The notes beneath the pieces were generated by a model. The model was given only the letters and a program-made list of their open reading frames with translations. It made no database searches and was not told where the DNA came from. Shown here piece after piece: positions 20,901 to 29,107 of a DNA stretch of 64,000 nucleotides. The stretch is from Chitinophagaceae bacterium (GTDB taxonomy: Bacteria > Bacteroidota > Bacteroidia > Chitinophagales > Chitinophagaceae), in contig JAIYAN010000023.1 of assembly GCA_027489035.1 (NCBI GenBank), forward strand, positions 62,001 through 126,000, given 5' to 3'. How positions within the stretch are numbered: position 1 is the first letter of the stretch; each line of letters starts with the position of its first letter. A program made the translations under genes and the position numbers.

Positions 20901-21008
20901 AAAGAAATCGCTTGAAAATGGCATTGATTAAAGGGATAAACCTCATTCAGCTTAAAAAATTTCTCATTTCGCAAAAGCATTAGAAACTATCTCATTATTT
21001 ATTATTTC

Positions 21009-21170
21009 GCTCCTATGGAGCTATTGATGTTGTTATGATTTTTATTGTTATAATTTCACCCCTACGGGGTTTGCTGTATAGTTTGTAAAGCAATGCTCAT
21101 TTTATTTAAACATACAGTACGATTTGAAAATTACCTATTCTAATAAACTGTCAATCTGCTCCGTAGGAGC
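21009..21170. repeat. Cluster of three short GC-rich palindromes
   Basis: Three hairpins of the same 5-3-5 layout lie in this 300-bp gap: GCTCC-TAT-GGAGC (21009-21021), ACCCC-TAC-GGGGT (21058-21070) and GCTCC-GTA-GGAGC (21158-21170). They stand out from the AT-rich surroundings and resemble REP-like elements common between Bacteroidota genes. The third ends eight bases before the stop of the SDR gene. No gene is seen in 20901-21177. Confidence 0.7.
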
Positions 21171-21177
21171 AAAATGT

Positions 21178-21894
21178 TTATATAGCTTGGTGGTTAAAAG
21201 GTTGCAACACCATTTCGCTGATAACTCCGCTTGTTGGCTGCTGGCATAAAAACCAAATGGCTTTGGCAGCTTCTTCGGAAGTAATCATTTTATCGCGTTG
21301 AACCCGAAGGTCGATATTGTCCCAAAACGGTGAATCCACACCCCCCATGAAAATATTGGTAATGCGAATGTCGGTGCGTTTAATTTCTTCCCGAATACTT
21401 TGCAACATGCCAACCAATCCGTATTTGCTCGCAGAATAAGCCGCAGCTCCAGCCATTGGTACTTTACCCAAAACTCCTGGAACATGAATCATTAATCCTT
21501 TTTTTGCTTCTTTCATTGCAGGTAAAAATGCACGAATGATTAAGTATGGCGAAAATAAATTAATCATAATCGTTTGTAAAAATTCTGTTTCGCTTAATTG
21601 GTCCATATTTTTAATGATGCCAATTCCTGATGCATTAATTAAAACATCAATGGTATTGTATTTTGCGAAATATGCTTCCTTAAGTTTGGTTACATTTTCG
21701 GCTAAGGTTAAATCGCCAACGAAGCATTGACTTGCATCTATTTTTAAATCAGCTGCTGTTGATTGTAAAATCGATTCGTTTCTACCGGTAATAAATAAAT
21801 TGGCACCAGAACTTGCGAGTAATTTAATGGTTTCTTTTCCGATTCCACCTGTTGCGCCTATAACTAAAATGTTTTTTCCTTTAATCGTTTCCAT
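21178..21894 (-). CDS. Short-chain dehydrogenase/reductase
   Basis: A 238-aa classical SDR. The NAD(P)-binding motif GATGGIGKE is at about residue 14, NASGIGI carries the NAG-like motif, and the catalytic Tyr-Lys is in YSASKYGLVG. The Ser expected before it is probably in the GVLGKVPMAG stretch. The substrate is not evident. It is divergent from a flavin reductase gene at 21968 with 73 bp between, so shared control is possible. Confidence 0.88.
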   Translation of the reverse strand: METIKGKNILVIGATGGIGKETIKLLASSGANLFITGRNESILQSTAADLKIDASQCFVGDLTLAENVTKLKEAYFAKYNTIDVLINASGIGIIKNMDQLSETEFLQTIMINLFSPYLIIRAFLPAMKEAKKGLMIHVPGVLGKVPMAGAAAYSASKYGLVGMLQSIREEIKRTDIRITNIFMGGVDSPFWDNIDLRVQRDKMITSEEAAKAIWFLCQQPTSGVISEMVLQPFNHQAI

Positions 21895-21967
21895 TTGATT
21901 TTTTATTTAAAACAAATTCTTTTTCTATTTGTTTAATGGTTTTAAAAATTCATAAAAAAACAAAATC

Positions 21968-22459
21968 GTGCCCGTTCAAATTAAGAAAAAGCCATGGAAT
22001 AGAGTTGACTTGCCCGTGTATAGCATAAGCAGCAAAGGAAATAAATACGACAACATGAACATCATTACCTATGCATCTGCGGTAAGCATGAAACCCAAAC
22101 GATTCATTTGTGCGGTATATAAAAACACCAAAACTTTAGAAAACGTTCGTTTAAAAGGATCATTTGTACTTCAGATTTTATCAGATAATCAATATGCATT
22201 GGTCCGTTTATTGGGCAAACAAACGGGAAATAAAATCAATAAAACAGATCGATTGCGCAAACGAAATTTAATTTCGGAATGGAAGGGGTTTAATATTTTG
22301 AAAGATGCTTTGGCGGTGATGGAAATGAACATTATACAAGAAATAGACGGCGGTGATCATGTTTGTTTTTTATGTGATGTTGTGGCGTATAAAAATTTAA
22401 ATGATGGGAAAGAATTGACCCTACATATTTTAAGTGAAAAGAAAATTATTTCGATTTGA
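21968..22459 (+). CDS. Flavin reductase family protein (short)
   Basis: A 163-aa FMN-binding split-barrel protein. It begins with GTG (the next ATG, in YDNMNIITYAS, would cut into the fold). The NIITYASAVSMKPKRFICAVYKNTKTLENV region is the flavin-binding core seen in NADH:FMN reductase-like proteins. The partner enzyme is unknown. It is the last housekeeping-type gene before the direct repeat that starts the accessory island, 12 bp after its stop. Confidence 0.82.
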   Translation: MPVQIKKKPWNRVDLPVYSISSKGNKYDNMNIITYASAVSMKPKRFICAVYKNTKTLENVRLKGSFVLQILSDNQYALVRLLGKQTGNKINKTDRLRKRNLISEWKGFNILKDALAVMEMNIIQEIDGGDHVCFLCDVVAYKNLNDGKELTLHILSEKKIISI

Positions 22460-22471
22460 GTGAATTGTTGA

Positions 22472-22612
22472 CGCGAAGACACAAAGACACAAAGACACGA
22501 AGACACGAAGTTTTTTTGAAATAAAAAATGCTAATTATTGGAAAATGATTCTAACCGTTAAACCCTTAAACATTAAACCAGTGTAGCGATTTAAACTTTA
22601 TTTGTTTCGCTT
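22472..22612. repeat. Left direct repeat of the island
   Basis: It starts with a CGAAGACACAAAG-type array, then a T-run, then a core (TGCTAATTATTGG, AAAATGATTCTAACCG), TTAAACC heptamers, CCAGTGTAGCGATTTAAAC and TTATTTGTTTCGC. The right copy at 26531-26640 has the same elements in the same order and orientation. It differs by one heptamer-sized deletion and a few substitutions. GTGTAGCG is shared by these two copies only; other family members have GCGAAGCG. Confidence 0.8.
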
Positions 22613-22675
22613 CCCACCTTTTAAACTTTTTTTATTTAGATGCAGTACTTCTTCAAAGAATTGTTGTGTTTTCAT
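22598..22675 (-). CDS. Possible 25-aa microprotein gene overlapping the left repeat
   Basis: A minus-strand frame of 25 codons runs from an ATG at 22675 to a TAA inside the repeat edge, ending GGKRNK. The right repeat copy also carries a short frame ending in ARNK at the same place, so the end may simply be repeat sequence. No promoter box was found for it. Reported as a weak candidate, not a confident gene. Confidence 0.15.
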   Translation of the reverse strand: MKTQQFFEEVLHLNKKSLKGGKRNK

Positions 22676-22775
22676 TTTCCTTCTCTGAAAATTGTGAATA
22701 TCCCACATTTTTTAGACAAAATTTTAAATTATATTTCATGTTGAACTAATTATAAAAATAAATAGTATAAATTTA

Positions 22776-22806
22776 TTTGCTTATAATCTCAATTATATTA
22801 TTTTTG
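22776..22806 (+). promoter_or_regulatory. Full Bacteroidota promoter for the island's first operon
   Basis: TTTG at 22776-22779 and TATTTTTG at 22799-22806 are separated by exactly 19 bases, a full match to the TTTG-N19-TAnnTTTG consensus. It predicts a transcript starting near 22810 and an 85-nt AT-rich leader before the 89-aa gene. The rest of 22613-22894 is AT-rich with nothing else recognised. Confidence 0.7.
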
Positions 22807-22894
22807 GTACAACATTTTAAAAGAATGTTAGTTTTAATAAAGCTTTTGTGTAAAAAATGTAATTTTAATTTATATTATTTAAAAAGACTAAAAC

Positions 22895-23164
22895 ATGAAA
22901 TTAGATTCTTCTCAACGAAATCAAATTGCATCTTATAAAATTACAATTGAAGGGTACAGACGTGATTTAGACCGTTTGAAAGAGGAAAAAAAACGTCAAT
23001 CCGAATATTATGCAAGAATGATAAAATCTGCTAGTACTCAAGATAGCAAAAGATCATACAGACAAACAAAAATTTCTACAATAAACGGAATTAATAACCG
23101 AATTGAATCTAAAAAGCGACAAATAGATCAATACAAAACATATATTAAAAATATCAGAAGCTAG
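22895..23164 (+). CDS. Small basic helical-hairpin protein, unknown function
   Basis: An 89-aa protein rich in Lys, Arg, Gln and Ile with no recognised domain. Two stretches (about residues 5-45 and 58-88) have heptad-like spacing and should form a helical hairpin or coiled coil, joined by a polar hinge (SASTQDSKRS). The size and two-helix layout recall WXG100-like or adaptor proteins, but no WxG motif is present. It has no signal peptide. It is the first gene after the island promoter, 32 bp before the tail-anchored protein gene. Function unknown. Confidence 0.7.
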   Translation: MKLDSSQRNQIASYKITIEGYRRDLDRLKEEKKRQSEYYARMIKSASTQDSKRSYRQTKISTINGINNRIESKKRQIDQYKTYIKNIRS

Positions 23165-23196
23165 TTTAACAAGTTTCATTAAATCTTTATTTTAAG

Positions 23197-23820
23197 ATGC
23201 CTAAAAGAATAGACTATTTATCTTCAGATGAAAAAAAGCAACTAAAAAAGGGTGTTATTAGTGTGGCATCAAAATCAATGAACAGAACCGCTTTAGGGAT
23301 AGTTGATGCAGTAATTCAATTATATCCGAATTGTTCATTACAGGAGCTTAAAGAAATTTTACCTGACGATTCGAACCCCGCAGCTCCAAAAAATTACAAA
23401 TCAATTTTCAAGCCATATACAGACAGAAAATATGGCGTAATACAACCGGATAGTATAATAAAAGAATGCGAAGCGCAAGGATTAGATGTGGCAGCATCTC
23501 ATTTTACTGCTGAAGGTGAATCTTTTATTTTAAAAGACGGAACTAAAATATTAGTTTCTCGTTCTTGGGAAAGTAAAGACACAGAAACCGGAGAACATGA
23601 TTTGCAAAATTTGATCAATCATGTAAAACAATATGGTGTAATCGTGTCAGAAAATGAAACTGAAAAAATTACAGGAGAAAATGGATATCAAACAAAAATT
23701 ATTAACCAGGAATTATACGATGTTTTACGAAGTCCAAAACAAAATAAACTAATTATTTGGATAATAGTTACAGCAATAGTTTTAGCAGCTATCGCATACT
23801 ATTTTTTTGTAAAAAAGTAA
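23197..23820 (+). CDS. Tail-anchored protein of unknown function
   Basis: A 207-aa protein with a soluble N-terminal region (about 1-180) and one C-terminal membrane helix at about 184-204 (IIWIIVTAIVLAAIAYYFF) followed by KK. That is a tail-anchor layout with the main domain probably in the cytoplasm. The first 60 residues look helical; the rest mixes strands and helices (KDGTKILVSRSWESKD, YGVIV). No known motif was recognised. It sits between the 89-aa and 126-aa genes (32 and 19 bp gaps), so it is very likely co-expressed with both. It may hold the complex at the membrane. Confidence 0.72.
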   Translation: MPKRIDYLSSDEKKQLKKGVISVASKSMNRTALGIVDAVIQLYPNCSLQELKEILPDDSNPAAPKNYKSIFKPYTDRKYGVIQPDSIIKECEAQGLDVAASHFTAEGESFILKDGTKILVSRSWESKDTETGEHDLQNLINHVKQYGVIVSENETEKITGENGYQTKIINQELYDVLRSPKQNKLIIWIIVTAIVLAAIAYYFFVKK

Positions 23821-23839
23821 CCAATTAAAATTAAATTAT

Positions 23840-24220
23840 ATGGCAGAAATTACATTCACAGGAAACAAGAAATTAAAATCAATTGCTCATGAATTTTCAA
23901 AAAAATTCCCTTATTTATTTTTACGTTTTTGGAATAATGAAGGAGCTCATGTGCATGATTGGGAATTAACACACTCTTCAATTCGTGGAAAAAAAGCAGC
24001 TGAAGATTTAAGTACAAATGCTAGTATGCTCGTTAGTACTTTTGAAAATAGATACGAGGCAACTTTTGGTTGTAAAATTGAAATTATGTACTTAAAAAAT
24101 GGAAGAAGATACAGATCATTGGATGGAAATAATAAACAAACATTAAATGAATTTAAAGAATGGGCAAAAGCAAAAGGTGCTGACAACATAATTGAAAAGC
24201 ATTCTAGTTTTTTTGCATAG
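23840..24220 (+). CDS. Small soluble protein of unknown function
   Basis: A 126-aa protein with no recognised family. It begins with a strand-like MAEITFTGNKKLKSIAHEFSK stretch. A central WNNEGAHVHDWELTHSSIRGKKAAEDLS region has two His and two Asp/Glu that could bind metal. It ends with an EFKEWAKAKGADNI helix. The alternation suggests a small alpha/beta fold. It is the last gene of the three-gene run: 19 bp after the tail-anchored protein gene and 28 bp before a strong terminator. A toxin, immunity or adaptor role cannot be decided from sequence. Confidence 0.7.
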   Translation: MAEITFTGNKKLKSIAHEFSKKFPYLFLRFWNNEGAHVHDWELTHSSIRGKKAAEDLSTNASMLVSTFENRYEATFGCKIEIMYLKNGRRYRSLDGNNKQTLNEFKEWAKAKGADNIIEKHSSFFA

Positions 24221-24248
24221 AAAATACGTTTAATTTCTTAATAATAGA

Positions 24249-24278
24249 GGCTGCCTGATTGTACAGGCAGCCTTTATT
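24249..24278 (+). terminator. Intrinsic terminator after the three-gene run
   Basis: Perfect nine-base arms GGCTGCCTG/CAGGCAGCC enclose a six-base loop and are followed by TTTATT. It separates the small-protein operon from the KAP NTPase gene, which then needs its own promoter or read-through. Confidence 0.88.
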
Positions 24279-24378
24279 AATTAAAATTGTTTCTGTTAAG
24301 AAATTATGCTTTACAATAAGCGCGCTAAAAATATAAAGCGTCATAACTTCAATATTAATCAAACAAATTTCACTTCAA

Positions 24379-26379
24379 ATGAACTCGAATACAAAATCAA
24401 GCGTTGTAGACATCCCTAAAAAAGCCGAAGAAAATGATCTATTTGGTATCGACAAGTACAAAAATGGGTTAATTAGATTTATATCAAATTCAGATACACC
24501 AATTACGATTGCTATCCAGGGAGAATGGGGAAGTGGAAAAACTTCTCTAATGAATTCTTTACAAGATAATTTGTGTGGCGGATATTTAACTTCAGATCAA
24601 TTAAAAGAACACAACCATGACTTTTATGGTGTTTGGATAAATACTTGGCAATATTCTTTGATGAGAAGTGAATCTGAAACATTAGTCAGTATTGTTACAG
24701 GATTAAGCACAAAGATTTTAGAAATTATAAATGCTCGCCATAAAACTAGTGTTCAGAAATTAGGGAATGCCGTATTAAGTTTCGGATCGAAAATATTCAA
24801 AAAAGCTGCTACAGTTGCGGCGGAGCAAACCTTAGGAGAAAGTGCGGGAGCTGCTATTGATTCTATGTTAGAAAAAGAGGCCGAACAACAAACCATCAAA
24901 CATCTTAGAGATGAGCTTCAGAATGCCATTAATGAATGTTTGGAAAATGATAAAAAAATCGGAAAAGAAAAAAAAGGATTTATATTTTTTATAGATGATT
25001 TAGACAGAATAGATCCAGCAATTGCAGTACAAATTTTAGAATTGCTAAAGAACATTTTCGATTTAAACAATTGCATTTTTGTATTAGCTATTGATTACGA
25101 TGTAGTGGTAAAAGGATTGAAACCAAAATTCGGTGAGCTAACAGATAAAAACGAAAGAGAATTCCGTTCATTCTTTGATAAGATTATTCAGATGCCATTT
25201 TCAATGCCTGTAGCATCATATAAAATCGATGATTTTTTAATTGAAAATCTATCAAAAATCAGGTTCTTAAATGAGGCTCAAACTAAGGACACTGCTCTAT
25301 CAGAAAAAATCAGCATGATTTGTAACCTTAGTGTTGGTAATAATCCGCGCTCTTTAAAAAGATTGATGAATACCATTTCACTAATTACAATTATTAATGA
25401 AGAAAACGAAGGAAATACATCAGATGGAAAAACGGAAAACGAATCTTTGCTCATCAATTTTGCATTAATATGTATTCAGATTTCTTATCCGCTTATATAC
25501 AAATGTCTTTGTATTGAAAGTGATTTCAAGAGCTGGAATGAAGATTTGGCCAATAAATTAAAGTTGAGAGAATTAAGCGACCACGAAATTCAAAAACTAA
25601 AACTGTCTGAAGAATTTGATGAATTGTGGGAACAAATTTTATTTAGACTTTGTGAAAAGGATACGTATTTGTCTAACCGCGCTAGTCAAATTTCTCAGCT
25701 ACTTAATTTGATTTCTACCTACATTACAGATGGCGCGAATTTAGGCGAGGTAATCGAAGAAATCCTTGAACTATCTGCTGTTACTGATATTCAAGCTTTT
25801 GACAAACCACAACAAGCCATAAATAAAGGAGTGGTATTGAAATCTGTTGGTGATGCATTGATTCCAATTTTGAAATCACAATTGCCATCTTGTTACCCAG
25901 ATGTAAGAAAACAAAGTAAAAAAGTACAATCAAATTATTACATCTCATATAGCAAAGCTAAAGAAGGTTGGAAAGATTGGGTAGGCTTAACCGTTAGTAA
26001 CAATAAAGAGGTGTTGTCTCTTGTTGTATGGAGTCACCCATGGTTGCTTCAGTCTAAATCTAACGATATGAGAAAGGATTTAAAAGAGCTTGGATTTTTA
26101 GAACAATTTGAAAGCATAGGTAAGTCATACAATGAAATGCTCAGCAAATTTCCGAAATTCAAAATGAAGTTTCCTAGTATAAGCTCATCAGGTATTGCCA
26201 ATAAAAAATGGCATGTTCCACATCTGACTTTTTTATACAATTTTAGTAACCCTCAAGAACTTGTTGAGAAAGAAGTGCTAAATGATATTGCTAGTTTCAC
26301 TACAGAGCACATGAAATTATACGCAGAATTATTGGAGCTTTCAAAAGCGTATAATGATAAGTTCAATCAAATGAAATAA
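24379..26379 (+). CDS. KAP-family P-loop NTPase
   Basis: A 666-aa protein. The Walker A motif is GEWGSGKTS at residues 48-56 and the Walker B motif is FIFFIDDLDRIDP at 201-213. WINTWQYS (about 87-94) matches the KAP signature between them, and CIFVLAIDYDVV follows Walker B. Many KAP proteins carry membrane helices between Walker A and B. Here that interval (about 125-195) is amphipathic and Ala/Gly-rich with no clear helix, so the protein is probably soluble or peripheral. The C-terminal 300 residues are of unknown fold. The family includes the F-plasmid phage-exclusion protein PifA. It is the last gene of the island. Confidence 0.88.
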   Translation: MNSNTKSSVVDIPKKAEENDLFGIDKYKNGLIRFISNSDTPITIAIQGEWGSGKTSLMNSLQDNLCGGYLTSDQLKEHNHDFYGVWINTWQYSLMRSESETLVSIVTGLSTKILEIINARHKTSVQKLGNAVLSFGSKIFKKAATVAAEQTLGESAGAAIDSMLEKEAEQQTIKHLRDELQNAINECLENDKKIGKEKKGFIFFIDDLDRIDPAIAVQILELLKNIFDLNNCIFVLAIDYDVVVKGLKPKFGELTDKNEREFRSFFDKIIQMPFSMPVASYKIDDFLIENLSKIRFLNEAQTKDTALSEKISMICNLSVGNNPRSLKRLMNTISLITIINEENEGNTSDGKTENESLLINFALICIQISYPLIYKCLCIESDFKSWNEDLANKLKLRELSDHEIQKLKLSEEFDELWEQILFRLCEKDTYLSNRASQISQLLNLISTYITDGANLGEVIEEILELSAVTDIQAFDKPQQAINKGVVLKSVGDALIPILKSQLPSCYPDVRKQSKKVQSNYYISYSKAKEGWKDWVGLTVSNNKEVLSLVVWSHPWLLQSKSNDMRKDLKELGFLEQFESIGKSYNEMLSKFPKFKMKFPSISSSGIANKKWHVPHLTFLYNFSNPQELVEKEVLNDIASFTTEHMKLYAELLELSKAYNDKFNQMK

Positions 26380-26431
26380 TAGGTTTTAACCTTCATGTAT
26401 TAATGCAGGAAGTTGATATTATTTGAATAGT

Positions 26432-26467
26432 AATCGCGTTTTTCGACATGAAGGCGCGATTTTTTTT
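26432..26467 (+). terminator. Intrinsic terminator after the KAP gene
   Basis: Seven-base arms AATCGCG/CGCGATT with a 16-base loop and a run of T. The loop contains CGACATGAAGG. It ends the island transcript. Confidence 0.7.
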
Positions 26468-26469
26468 AA

Positions 26470-26766
26470 CATGAAGATTTTTAACACGAAGACACGAAGG
26501 TTTTTTAACACGAAGACACGAAGGCACGAAGACACAAAGGCACGAAGTTTTTTTTAAAACAAAAATGCTAATGATTGGAAAATGATTCTAACCGTTAAAC
26601 CATTAAACCAGTGTAGCGATTTAAACCTTATTTGTTTCGCGCAAAACCTTTGCTGTTGAAAAATTTCATTAATGTAGATGCGTCCAACATTTTGAACTCA
26701 TTGAACGTATTGAACCTTTTGAACGGGTTGAAAATATTCATCCACTACAACCTCACAAACCTCTTC
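26470..26766. repeat. Right direct repeat of the island plus composite repeat
   Basis: CACGAAGA-type units (26486-26551) lead into the right direct repeat (26531-26640). TTGAAC-type units (26685-26735) come next, then a degenerate GGTTGAAAATATTCA hairpin near 26729 and CTCACAAACC units up to the end of the PhnA-like gene. No gene is seen in 26468-26768. Confidence 0.75.
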
Positions 26767-26768
26767 CT

Positions 26769-27350
26769 CTACCCCTGCTTTCTTACATATTTTGTAAGAA
26801 TGACAATCAATTGGCCTTCAACTTTTCCTTCAATTTGTTCTGTGTTATCTGCTACGATTTTAATGTTTTTAACCACCGTTCCCATTTTGGCGTTTAATGT
26901 AGAACCTTTCACATCCAGAGATTTTGTAAGCACAACGGTATCTCCATCTTGTAGTTGTTGCCCATTAGCATCTCTATGAAGATCAATCACACTGCTGTTT
27001 TCATGATCGCCAGTTGCTTTTGCCCAAATTAAAGTATCGTCATCTAAAAACATCATGTCTAAATTATCTGATGCCCAACTTTCATCGCGAAGACGATTTA
27101 GCATACGCCAAGAAATCACTTGAATAGCGGGCACTTCGCTCCACATTGTTTCAGTTAAACAATTCCAATGTTGGTAGTTAAGCATTTCCTTCTTCTCAAT
27201 TTGAGCGCTACAAGTACCACATATCATAGCACAACCTTGTTCATCTTTATATTTTGCAAATGGCACTTCGTATAATATTGTGGTGGTTTCCGCCTTACAT
27301 AATTCGCATTTATTTTCGCTACGTAATTTTAAAATTTCTTCTAGTTTCAT
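26769..27350 (-). CDS. PhnA/YjdM-like zinc-ribbon protein
   Basis: A 193-aa protein. The N-terminal half carries zinc-ribbon Cys pairs (CELCKAE and CGTCSAQ). The C-terminal half is the PhnA domain (DANGQQLQDGDTVVLTKSLDVKGSTLNAKMGTVVKNI). The E. coli homologue YjdM/PhnA is shorter (about 111 aa); the longer form with an extra central helical part is common in Bacteroidota. Despite the name, a role in phosphonate use is doubtful. It directly follows the island's right repeat, and its transcript runs toward the island. Confidence 0.88.
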   Translation of the reverse strand: MKLEEILKLRSENKCELCKAETTTILYEVPFAKYKDEQGCAMICGTCSAQIEKKEMLNYQHWNCLTETMWSEVPAIQVISWRMLNRLRDESWASDNLDMMFLDDDTLIWAKATGDHENSSVIDLHRDANGQQLQDGDTVVLTKSLDVKGSTLNAKMGTVVKNIKIVADNTEQIEGKVEGQLIVILTKYVRKQG

Positions 27351-27475
27351 TTTTTATTGTTTTATAAAATCGATATTAGTTCACAACTTTTTTGTTTTAA
27401 ACTAACTTGATTCTTCTGTTGATAATGGCCGCAAATGTTACAATTGATTAATGAAATAATTTAATCATTATGTAA

Positions 27476-29107
27476 TCAATACACCTTAACCCCATCAATA
27501 AAAGTTGAAACTACTTTTGTTTTTAAAACGTCTTCTTTTTTGCATTGTATTAAATCGGTATCAATTATAATAAAATCAGCTACTTTGCCGATTTCTAAAC
27601 TTCCTTTTTCCTTTTCCTCAAATGCTGCTTTTGCTGCCCAAATGGTCATGCCTCTGATGGCTTGCTCTCTAGTTAATCCTTGTTCTATTTGAAAGCCATC
27701 ATTTGGGAAACCTTTATCATCCACCCTAAAAACCGCTGCTAAAAACGTTTTAAATGGACTAATATATTCCACCGGAAAATCTGTGCCCAATGGCAACCAT
27801 CCATTTTCTTTTAAAAGAGTTTTATAAGCATATGCACCTTTTATTCTTTCAACCCCTATTCTATCTTTTGCCCAATACATATCGCTTGTAGCATGTGTTG
27901 GTTGTACAGATGGAATTATGCTAAATGATCTGAAATGATGAAAGTCGTATGGATTGATTACCTGAGCATGCTCAATTCGCCAGCGTTTGTCGTTTTTCTC
28001 TTTCAATACATCACCATATATTTTTAGAATTGTTCTATTGCCACTATCGCCTATTGCATGTGTACACATTTGAAAATCAGTATGCACCAACTTTTCAGCA
28101 ACTTCTCGAAAATGCTTTTCATCACTCAATAAAAATCCATGCCAGTGTTTTTTGTCGTTGTATTCACTCAGCATACAAGCCCCGCGAGATCCAAGCGCAC
28201 CATCAGCATACAATTTAAATCCACCTACATGCAAACCGTTTGTTTTGTAAGGACCTTTTTTGATCCACTTGTCGTAATAATTTGAACTGTCAGATAATAA
28301 TGCAAAAATCTTCATTTTTAAATCACCTGATTTCTGTGCCTGTTCTATCAATTCAATCGTATGCTCACTTACACCACAATCATGAACGCCGGTTAATCCT
28401 TGCTCAAAGCACATTTGCTGCATTTCATTAAAATATTTTTTTGCCAAATCATCTGTAATTGATGGAATGTTTTTTTCTACCAAGTCCATCGCATTGTCGA
28501 TTAAAATACCAGTTAGCTTACCATCTTTTATTTCAACACTGCCGCCCTTGATAATTGTTTGTGTATTTAAACCAGATAAATCAAGTGCTTTCTGATTGGC
28601 TAAAGCCGCATGACCATCCACACGTTTTAAAAAAACAGGTCTATTGGGAAACAAGCTGTCTAACACTTTTTTATTGGGAAACGATTTAATTCCCCAATCA
28701 TTTTGGTCCCAACCTCTTCCATAAATCCATTCCATCGGGGCGGATTTGCTGTAATTGATTATTTTATCTACAATCTCTTCAAATGAATGGGTGCCCGTTA
28801 AATCACATTTCCATTGATCTGTAGCATACCCAGTAAAATGGCAATGCGCATCAATAAGTCCTGGAAATATATATTTGTTGTTTGCATCTATTGTGCTGTC
28901 TGATTCATAGGTTTTTAAGATGTTTTCATTGCTTCCTGTTGCTACAATTTTTCCGTCTTTTATGGCCATTGCTTCAACAACACTGAAACCGCTATCAACG
29001 GTGTAAATTTTGGCATTATGCACAATCAAAGAAACAGTCGTTTTATTGCTACAAGAAAATAGAAATAAAATAGAGCAAATGGAAATTAATTTTTGAATAG
29101 AAAGCAT
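27476..29107 (-). CDS. Amidohydrolase of the YtcJ/Amidohydro_3 type, lipoprotein
   Basis: A 543-aa protein with a lipoprotein signal (lipobox LFSC, Cys at about residue 19). The metal-binding HxH is in DAHCHFTGYA, and later motifs are ERHHA-like HGHAALA, IGDSGNRTIL, WRIEHAQVI and LGTDFPVEYISP. These are the marks of the Amidohydro_3 family, often annotated as imidazolonepropionase-like or N-acyl-amino-acid hydrolase-like. The substrate is unknown, and the location is outer membrane or periplasm. It is divergent from ligA with 71 bp between, and each gene has its own -7 box. Confidence 0.88.
   Translation of the reverse strand: MLSIQKLISICSILFLFSCSNKTTVSLIVHNAKIYTVDSGFSVVEAMAIKDGKIVATGSNENILKTYESDSTIDANNKYIFPGLIDAHCHFTGYATDQWKCDLTGTHSFEEIVDKIINYSKSAPMEWIYGRGWDQNDWGIKSFPNKKVLDSLFPNRPVFLKRVDGHAALANQKALDLSGLNTQTIIKGGSVEIKDGKLTGILIDNAMDLVEKNIPSITDDLAKKYFNEMQQMCFEQGLTGVHDCGVSEHTIELIEQAQKSGDLKMKIFALLSDSSNYYDKWIKKGPYKTNGLHVGGFKLYADGALGSRGACMLSEYNDKKHWHGFLLSDEKHFREVAEKLVHTDFQMCTHAIGDSGNRTILKIYGDVLKEKNDKRWRIEHAQVINPYDFHHFRSFSIIPSVQPTHATSDMYWAKDRIGVERIKGAYAYKTLLKENGWLPLGTDFPVEYISPFKTFLAAVFRVDDKGFPNDGFQIEQGLTREQAIRGMTIWAAKAAFEEKEKGSLEIGKVADFIIIDTDLIQCKKEDVLKTKVVSTFIDGVKVY

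Follow-up and report, generated by a model that had tools for sequence, protein, structure and literature searches.

A polymorphic four-gene island with a KAP-family NTPase and a putative membrane anchor in a Bacteroidota genome: a candidate conflict system

The window analyzed here, a 64,000-nt stretch of a 3.04 Mb Bacteroidota genome (G000), carries four neighboring open reading frames (ORFs), designated A, B, C, and KAP, the last of which encodes a KAP-family P-loop NTPase. We tentatively favor the reading that this segment is a gain-and-loss island with a modular, envelope-anchored KAP-NTPase conflict system of Bacteroidota, most likely directed against phages. This reading is supported by recurrence of the genes in divergent genomes, enrichment of KAP and A in genomes with B, polymorphism of the site, fusions of B to OmpA domains, the neighbors of KAP relatives, and matches to PADLOC models. 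A preliminary description of this DNA had proposed a membrane-linked defense or conflict system with KAP as motor or switch; recurrence and the anchor support that proposal, while the defense role would follow from the neighbors of relatives rather than from the window locus, and B loci without KAP speak against it. Function is deduced from sequence throughout. KAP NTPases occur in several anti-phage systems; a KAP protein that recurs with a membrane-anchored, sometimes peptidoglycan-binding partner, two more unassigned families, and a UDG-type protein in relatives would tie the sensing of envelope events to an attack on DNA in a concrete form that is open to experiment. Moreover, A, B, and C represent three protein families outside the libraries searched.

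A pattern scan with B over 84,980 species genomes, which reaches close relatives only, turned up 66 candidate stretches and left 12 loci (L001 to L012) after confirmation; their gene orders were scored with profile models. Relatives of B in divergent genomes are 49–55% identical to the window protein. In ten of the 12 loci, C is no more than 1 kb away from B, and in seven KAP follows B within 1.8 kb, on the same strand as B and C. The order C-(A or TerB-like)-B-KAP was found in L001, L002, L004, L009, L010, and L012, with A itself in L009, L010, and L012 and the TerB-like gene in L001; L006 displays B-C-C-KAP, which corresponds to the B-C-KAP order of the window. In L008 and L011, the sequence ends less than 500 bp downstream of B. 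The record holding L008 is titled Actinomyces viscosus, yet its B groups with Bacteroidota sequences, and it is probably a mislabeled metagenome-assembled genome.

Whole-assembly searches revealed a strong KAP homologue in 8 of the 12 B genomes; that of G488 is on a different contig, in a locus with the order HTH370-C-TerB-KAP and no B (HTH370 being a gene for which no family was found). In the phylum sample, only two of 393 genomes besides G000 and G192 held a KAP of at least 370 bits, a cut-off set after the list was seen, and six of 395 in all held one at E ≤ 1e-60. A was present in seven B genomes (linked to B in three, elsewhere in four, the G490 copy being broken) and in 0 of the 394 other phylum genomes; among five further genomes examined, G471 gave a weak match. 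The enrichment in B genomes corresponds to Fisher p values of ~1e-12 each for KAP and A, which ignore kinship and the different route by which the B genomes were found. C was detected in 7 of 395 phylum genomes (E ≤ 1e-5) and exceeded 60 bits only in G000 and G192, which are also the two carriers of B in that sample.

Hydropathy disclosed a single strong hydrophobic segment in B, at residues 185–203 of 207, in agreement with the earlier view of B as a tail-anchored protein. Its proposed role as membrane anchor gains support from the relatives in L006 and L012, whose chains run past the helix into an OmpA domain (2e-19 and 5.8e-18). The position of OmpA beyond the helix suggests that the C-terminus of B is periplasmic and its conserved domain of ~170 residues cytosolic. 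The predicted fold of B (pLDDT 81.8) had no usable match in the PDB; that of C (pLDDT 84.7) gave weak ubiquitin-like matches, on which we base no claim. Sequence searches of the PDB with KAP, B, and C returned nothing at E < 0.1.

Comparison within the genus shows that the segment was inserted or exchanged at a polymorphic, gain-and-loss site. In G409, of the same genus, the site is empty: 628 bp separate the flavin-reductase-like and PhnA/YjdM-like genes that flank the segment in the window, and A, B, C, and KAP are all missing from that interval. G471, also of this genus, has the same flanks and a KAP 93% identical to that of the window, with DUF2779, a DNA-ligase-like gene, and others upstream in place of A-B-C. 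The two comparisons indicate that the locus is polymorphic and that KAP and A-B-C are separable. At this site in G471 (L022:1395-6375), an ATP-dependent DNA-ligase-like gene is accompanied by small genes of unknown kind and one for a Fib_succ_major protein, which together may form a further conflict cassette.

The island of the preliminary description is thus borne out by G409 and G471 and not by the direct repeats that had been taken as its bounds. These repeats, 86% alike, are members of a dispersed intergenic family with at least 51 BLAST pieces in G000, both included, a count for which 40 of 176 first-look candidates were scored; other copies are 85% alike over 116–119 bases. Since the family is dispersed through the genome, the repeats are no evidence of element ends, and a repeat-bounded mobile element is ruled out. 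The family, made up of the flanking pair and at least 49 further pieces, is marked by CACGAAGACACGAAG-like runs with an AT-rich tail behind them.

The assignment of the fourth ORF to the KAP family was confirmed by PF07693, which the protein matches with 129 bits (cut-off 20) over residues 25–337. The motifs GEWGSGKTS and FFIDDLDR are invariant in all 11 aligned KAPs, and the Walker motifs are intact. Among PADLOC models, the window KAP matched PifA (2.1e-33), PDC-S20 (2.4e-29), and QatA. PifA employs a KAP NTPase, and the likeness resides in the P-loop domain: residues 9–335 of the window KAP align only with the N-terminal positions 6–315 of the 720 in the PifA model, short of a whole-model match. 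The likeness to PDC-S20, a PADLOC candidate, is also in the KAP P-loop domain and covers positions 6–379 of 464 with 101 bits, for a model without a stated cut-off. Zorya couples an inner-membrane protein with a peptidoglycan-binding part to cytosolic effectors, and its resemblance to a membrane or peptidoglycan protein plus cytosolic effectors is an analogy only; none of the four window proteins matches a Zor model, ZorA and ZorB included, B has no OmpA part, and a MotA-like partner is absent.

Tmn and Qat employ KAP NTPases (PMC11846954 and PMC13279940); for Tmn, the former paper describes an NTPase of the KAP family that has two transmembrane domains. The window KAP shares the P-loop domain with Tmn but has no two clear membrane segments (best 19-residue hydropathy means 1.77, 1.53, and 1.29, with no transmembrane-like pair), so by hydropathy it is no Tmn protein, and B would supply the membrane link. 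QatA, the KAP NTPase of QatABCD, was matched with 72.3 bits versus a cut-off of 600, and A, B, and C have no Qat match, which sets the locus apart from Qat. The ternary conflict systems with iSTAND NTPases carry OmpA- or PEGA-type domains after a transmembrane segment (PMC7159879, eLife 2020), as do the B fusions with OmpA; the NTPase there is STAND, not KAP, and the word KAP was not found in the main text of that paper. Brig1 is an antiviral DNA glycosylase (PMC11078745), and UDG-like neighbors of KAP relatives, likened to it by kind only, make a glycosylase effector conceivable; none was seen beside the window set. The gene set is not mentioned in the available portions of PMC11846954, PMC13279940, PMC10952713, PMC7159879, or PMC11078745. 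Searches of an open-licence library brought up no paper recognizable as an account of it, which is weak evidence because subscription papers are mostly outside those searches.

Several gene types recur around KAP in relatives. Genes for DUF481 proteins, which are of an outer-membrane type, are downstream of KAP in five of the seven B-KAP loci according to a purpose-built model, the L002 copy falling just under the Pfam cut-off, and HTH370 is upstream in five of the seven. UDG-like genes lie downstream in L002, L004, L006 (partial), and L009, as well as in the B-less KAP loci L024 and L025; in L012 there is only a 51-residue, 28-bit fragment, upstream. The UDG-superfamily model PF03167 (cut-off 24.3) was reached in L009 (29.3 bits) and L025 (25.6) and by a different UDG-type protein in L116 (28.6); L002 scored 22.8, under the cut-off, and the partial gene of L006 gave no match. 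The best solved-structure match of these UDG-like neighbors is a UDG, at E 0.028 only. The TerB-like gene that occupies A's place in L001 scores 21.1 bits, under the Pfam cut-off of 24.4, and has a relative in L062. DUF2779 lies within ~4 kb of KAP in all four B-less KAP loci of the genus (L022 to L025), directly upstream in G471.

Nearness to known defense genes, which the preliminary description had named as a check, was found beside KAP relatives, in loci other than the window's. A Zorya type II system (ZorA2, ZorB2, ZorE2) lies ~1.3–4.3 kb from a distant KAP, 33% identical to ours, in G042, GmrSD begins 4–5 nt after another distant KAP, 43% identical, in both copies of G226, and KAP adjoins a weak PDC-S26 match in G477; these come from one PADLOC scan of 10 hand-picked proteins, which left out the B-C-C loci. 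A peptidase M43/PKD protein is downstream in the B-C-C locus L003. The two G226 loci (L063, L064) are apparently identical cassettes of a beta-flower-like gene, KAP, and GmrSD at two chromosomal sites, one of them within an array in which five copies of a 263-aa gene, with the same first 60 residues, stand between different genes, giving it a cassette-collecting look.

In the conflict system that we propose, C and A would be cytosolic sensor or adaptor proteins, and B a single-pass inner-membrane protein whose conserved cytosolic domain holds the complex at the membrane and, in L006 and L012, at the peptidoglycan as well. The cytosolic KAP NTPase would use ATP as a switch or motor, so that detection of incoming phage DNA or of a damaged envelope would trigger an effector. 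A neighboring protein, either that of the UDG superfamily or DUF2779, may fill the effector role in relatives; no such neighbor was seen in the window, where the effector would be KAP, B, or a protein encoded elsewhere. A bolder and unlikely version is a trans-envelope immune system, in which B ties KAP to the inner membrane and fuller forms reach the peptidoglycan through OmpA and the outer membrane through the DUF481 protein. Such a system would sense phage DNA injection and signal a UDG-family glycosylase, the window being a reduced form whose B has no periplasmic domain.

A number of observations weigh against a four-gene conflict system. The recurrence that had been suggested as a check extends to B, C, and KAP together on one strand in seven of 12 loci, but all four genes are linked in only three (L009, L010, L012). 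Parts also occur alone: L003, L005, and L007 are B-C-C loci with no KAP nearby; G490, G492, G493, and G496 have B and no such KAP in the assembly; and the distant B of G192 stands two genes away from C, in a genome where KAP and A of these families are both missing. Strong KAP is present in 5 of 93 genomes of the genus (7 of 93 at E ≤ 1e-10) and B in one, and in four of these five KAP has no A, B, or C nearby. The defense-like neighbors belong to loci other than the window's, and three other distant-KAP loci (L065, L066, L068), outside the PADLOC scan, have nothing comparable by eye. PADLOC gave no match for the UDG-like, LRR, and HTH370 neighbors, a weak Cas4 match only for DUF2779, and none above noise for A, B, and C. 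Trees place the window KAP in one group with the KAPs of G471 and G477, two genomes of this genus whose KAP has no A, B, or C in its vicinity, and place the window C among copies from loci that lack KAP (99/98). Judged by these trees, in which several rows are on long branches and B's position is not settled, the window is a KAP of one clade joined to C from another locus type, and these genes may have come together by accident at a hotspot.

Some of these points favor an explanation that we nonetheless regard as doubtful, namely that there is no single system and that two accessory units without relation to each other, A-B-C and KAP, landed in one variable site, KAP of this genus being paired with DUF2779. 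The proximity of DUF2779 in all four B-less genus loci, the different source-locus types of the C and KAP trees, the hairpin between the two genes, and the four B genomes without such a KAP agree with it. Against it, in seven loci of about five distinct contexts the KAP belongs to a second clade and B stands just ahead of it (directly in six, with C copies between in L006), so that two KAP clades adjoin B, and chance adjacency is small in genomes of ~3 Mb. Because of this second clade, we favor the view that B and C are exchanged among KAP clades and work with KAPs in general. Another rather improbable alternative is a chromosomal stress-response or envelope-maintenance complex, modeled on TerB-type (Ter-dependent) stress systems, with B at the membrane and peptidoglycan, the DUF481 protein at the outer membrane, KAP as a chaperone-like NTPase, and the UDG-like protein in DNA repair. 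The OmpA fusions, DUF481 neighbors, and TerB-like gene at A's position would suit such a complex, as would remote C-family genes that by eye adjoin apparent universal-stress genes (L042, L043, L045) and CBS-domain genes (L043, L045), a point that also counts against a conflict role. The very patchy occurrence, with B in one of 93 genomes of the genus, and the clean absence at the site in G409 are unlike maintenance, however, and Shango and Bunzi, which are defense systems, contain TerB domains as well (PMC10952713). Small variable genes and duplicated C copies could instead point to a locus for toxin and immunity functions or for contact-dependent competition, in which B/OmpA and DUF481 would be the components in the envelope, but the family-library searches matched the window set to no toxin or immunity family, and we consider this very unlikely.

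Table 1. Features of the island and its flanks (window positions)
Feature	Position	Strand	Remarks
Flavin reductase-like gene	21968-22459	+	left flank of polymorphic site
Left copy, dispersed intergenic repeat	22465-22621		not element end
A	22895-23164	+	89 aa, charged, probably helical; no family match above noise
B	23197-23820	+	207 aa; conserved soluble domain, residues ~10-175; C-terminal membrane helix, 185-203; OmpA extension in L006, L012
C	23840-24220	+	126 aa, alpha/beta; two like halves by eye; 5 family members in G000
Strong hairpin, C-KAP interval	24235-24300	+	probable terminator or processing site
KAP-family P-loop NTPase	24379-26379	+	666 aa; 666-aa subclade
Right copy, dispersed intergenic repeat	26502-26640		
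PhnA/YjdM-like gene	26769-27350	-	right flank of polymorphic site

The four plus-strand genes of the preliminary description proved to be ORFs with homologues in other genomes, each at the place it had given. Its single A-B-C transcript is consistent with the short gaps of 32 nt (A-B) and 19 nt (B-C), compared with 158 nt between C and KAP. The terminator that it had placed ahead of KAP fared less evenly: an 86-nt stretch there, with the hairpin at 24248-24273, has a folding energy of -34.9 kcal/mol (z -7.7, equaled by none of 200 shuffles), but a consensus terminator scan called the hairpin on the minus strand only and stood at chance level (2 sites versus 1.9 in shuffles). The hairpin is likely a terminator after C, and as a divider of C from KAP it is a further point against a single four-gene system. 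The GC content of A-B-C is 29.7%, versus a mean of 34.4% (standard deviation 2.7) for 54 mechanical ORFs of at least 150 aa in the window, a difference that is suggestive only. No RNA family was found in 21000-28000 and no tRNA in the window.

A phage or plasmid origin was considered and set aside. At an E limit of 1e-5, B had no match among 50,697 records of phages and 72,556 of plasmids, and seven candidate stretches in IMG/VR contigs yielded none that was confirmed. For KAP, a single plasmid record matched, with 32% identity, under an E limit of 1e-20, and no phage record matched under a limit of 1e-10.

Searches of Pfam, NCBIfam, PHROGs, and PADLOC with A, B, and C returned nothing above noise, so the housekeeping families that the preliminary description had named as a refutation did not appear. 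Among remote C-family genes, that of L046 adjoins a response-regulator-like gene by eye; it and those of L042, L043, and L045 are possible housekeeping relatives of C. A weak relative of A (28–29 bits) stands directly next to C and a UDG-superfamily gene in G471 (L116:7522-8883), a second type of A-C locus. In the window's own genome, a further member of the C family (C3, L039:9574-15247) has the C domain as the N-terminus of a 499-aa protein, and the next gene encodes a 1280-aa ankyrin-repeat protein.

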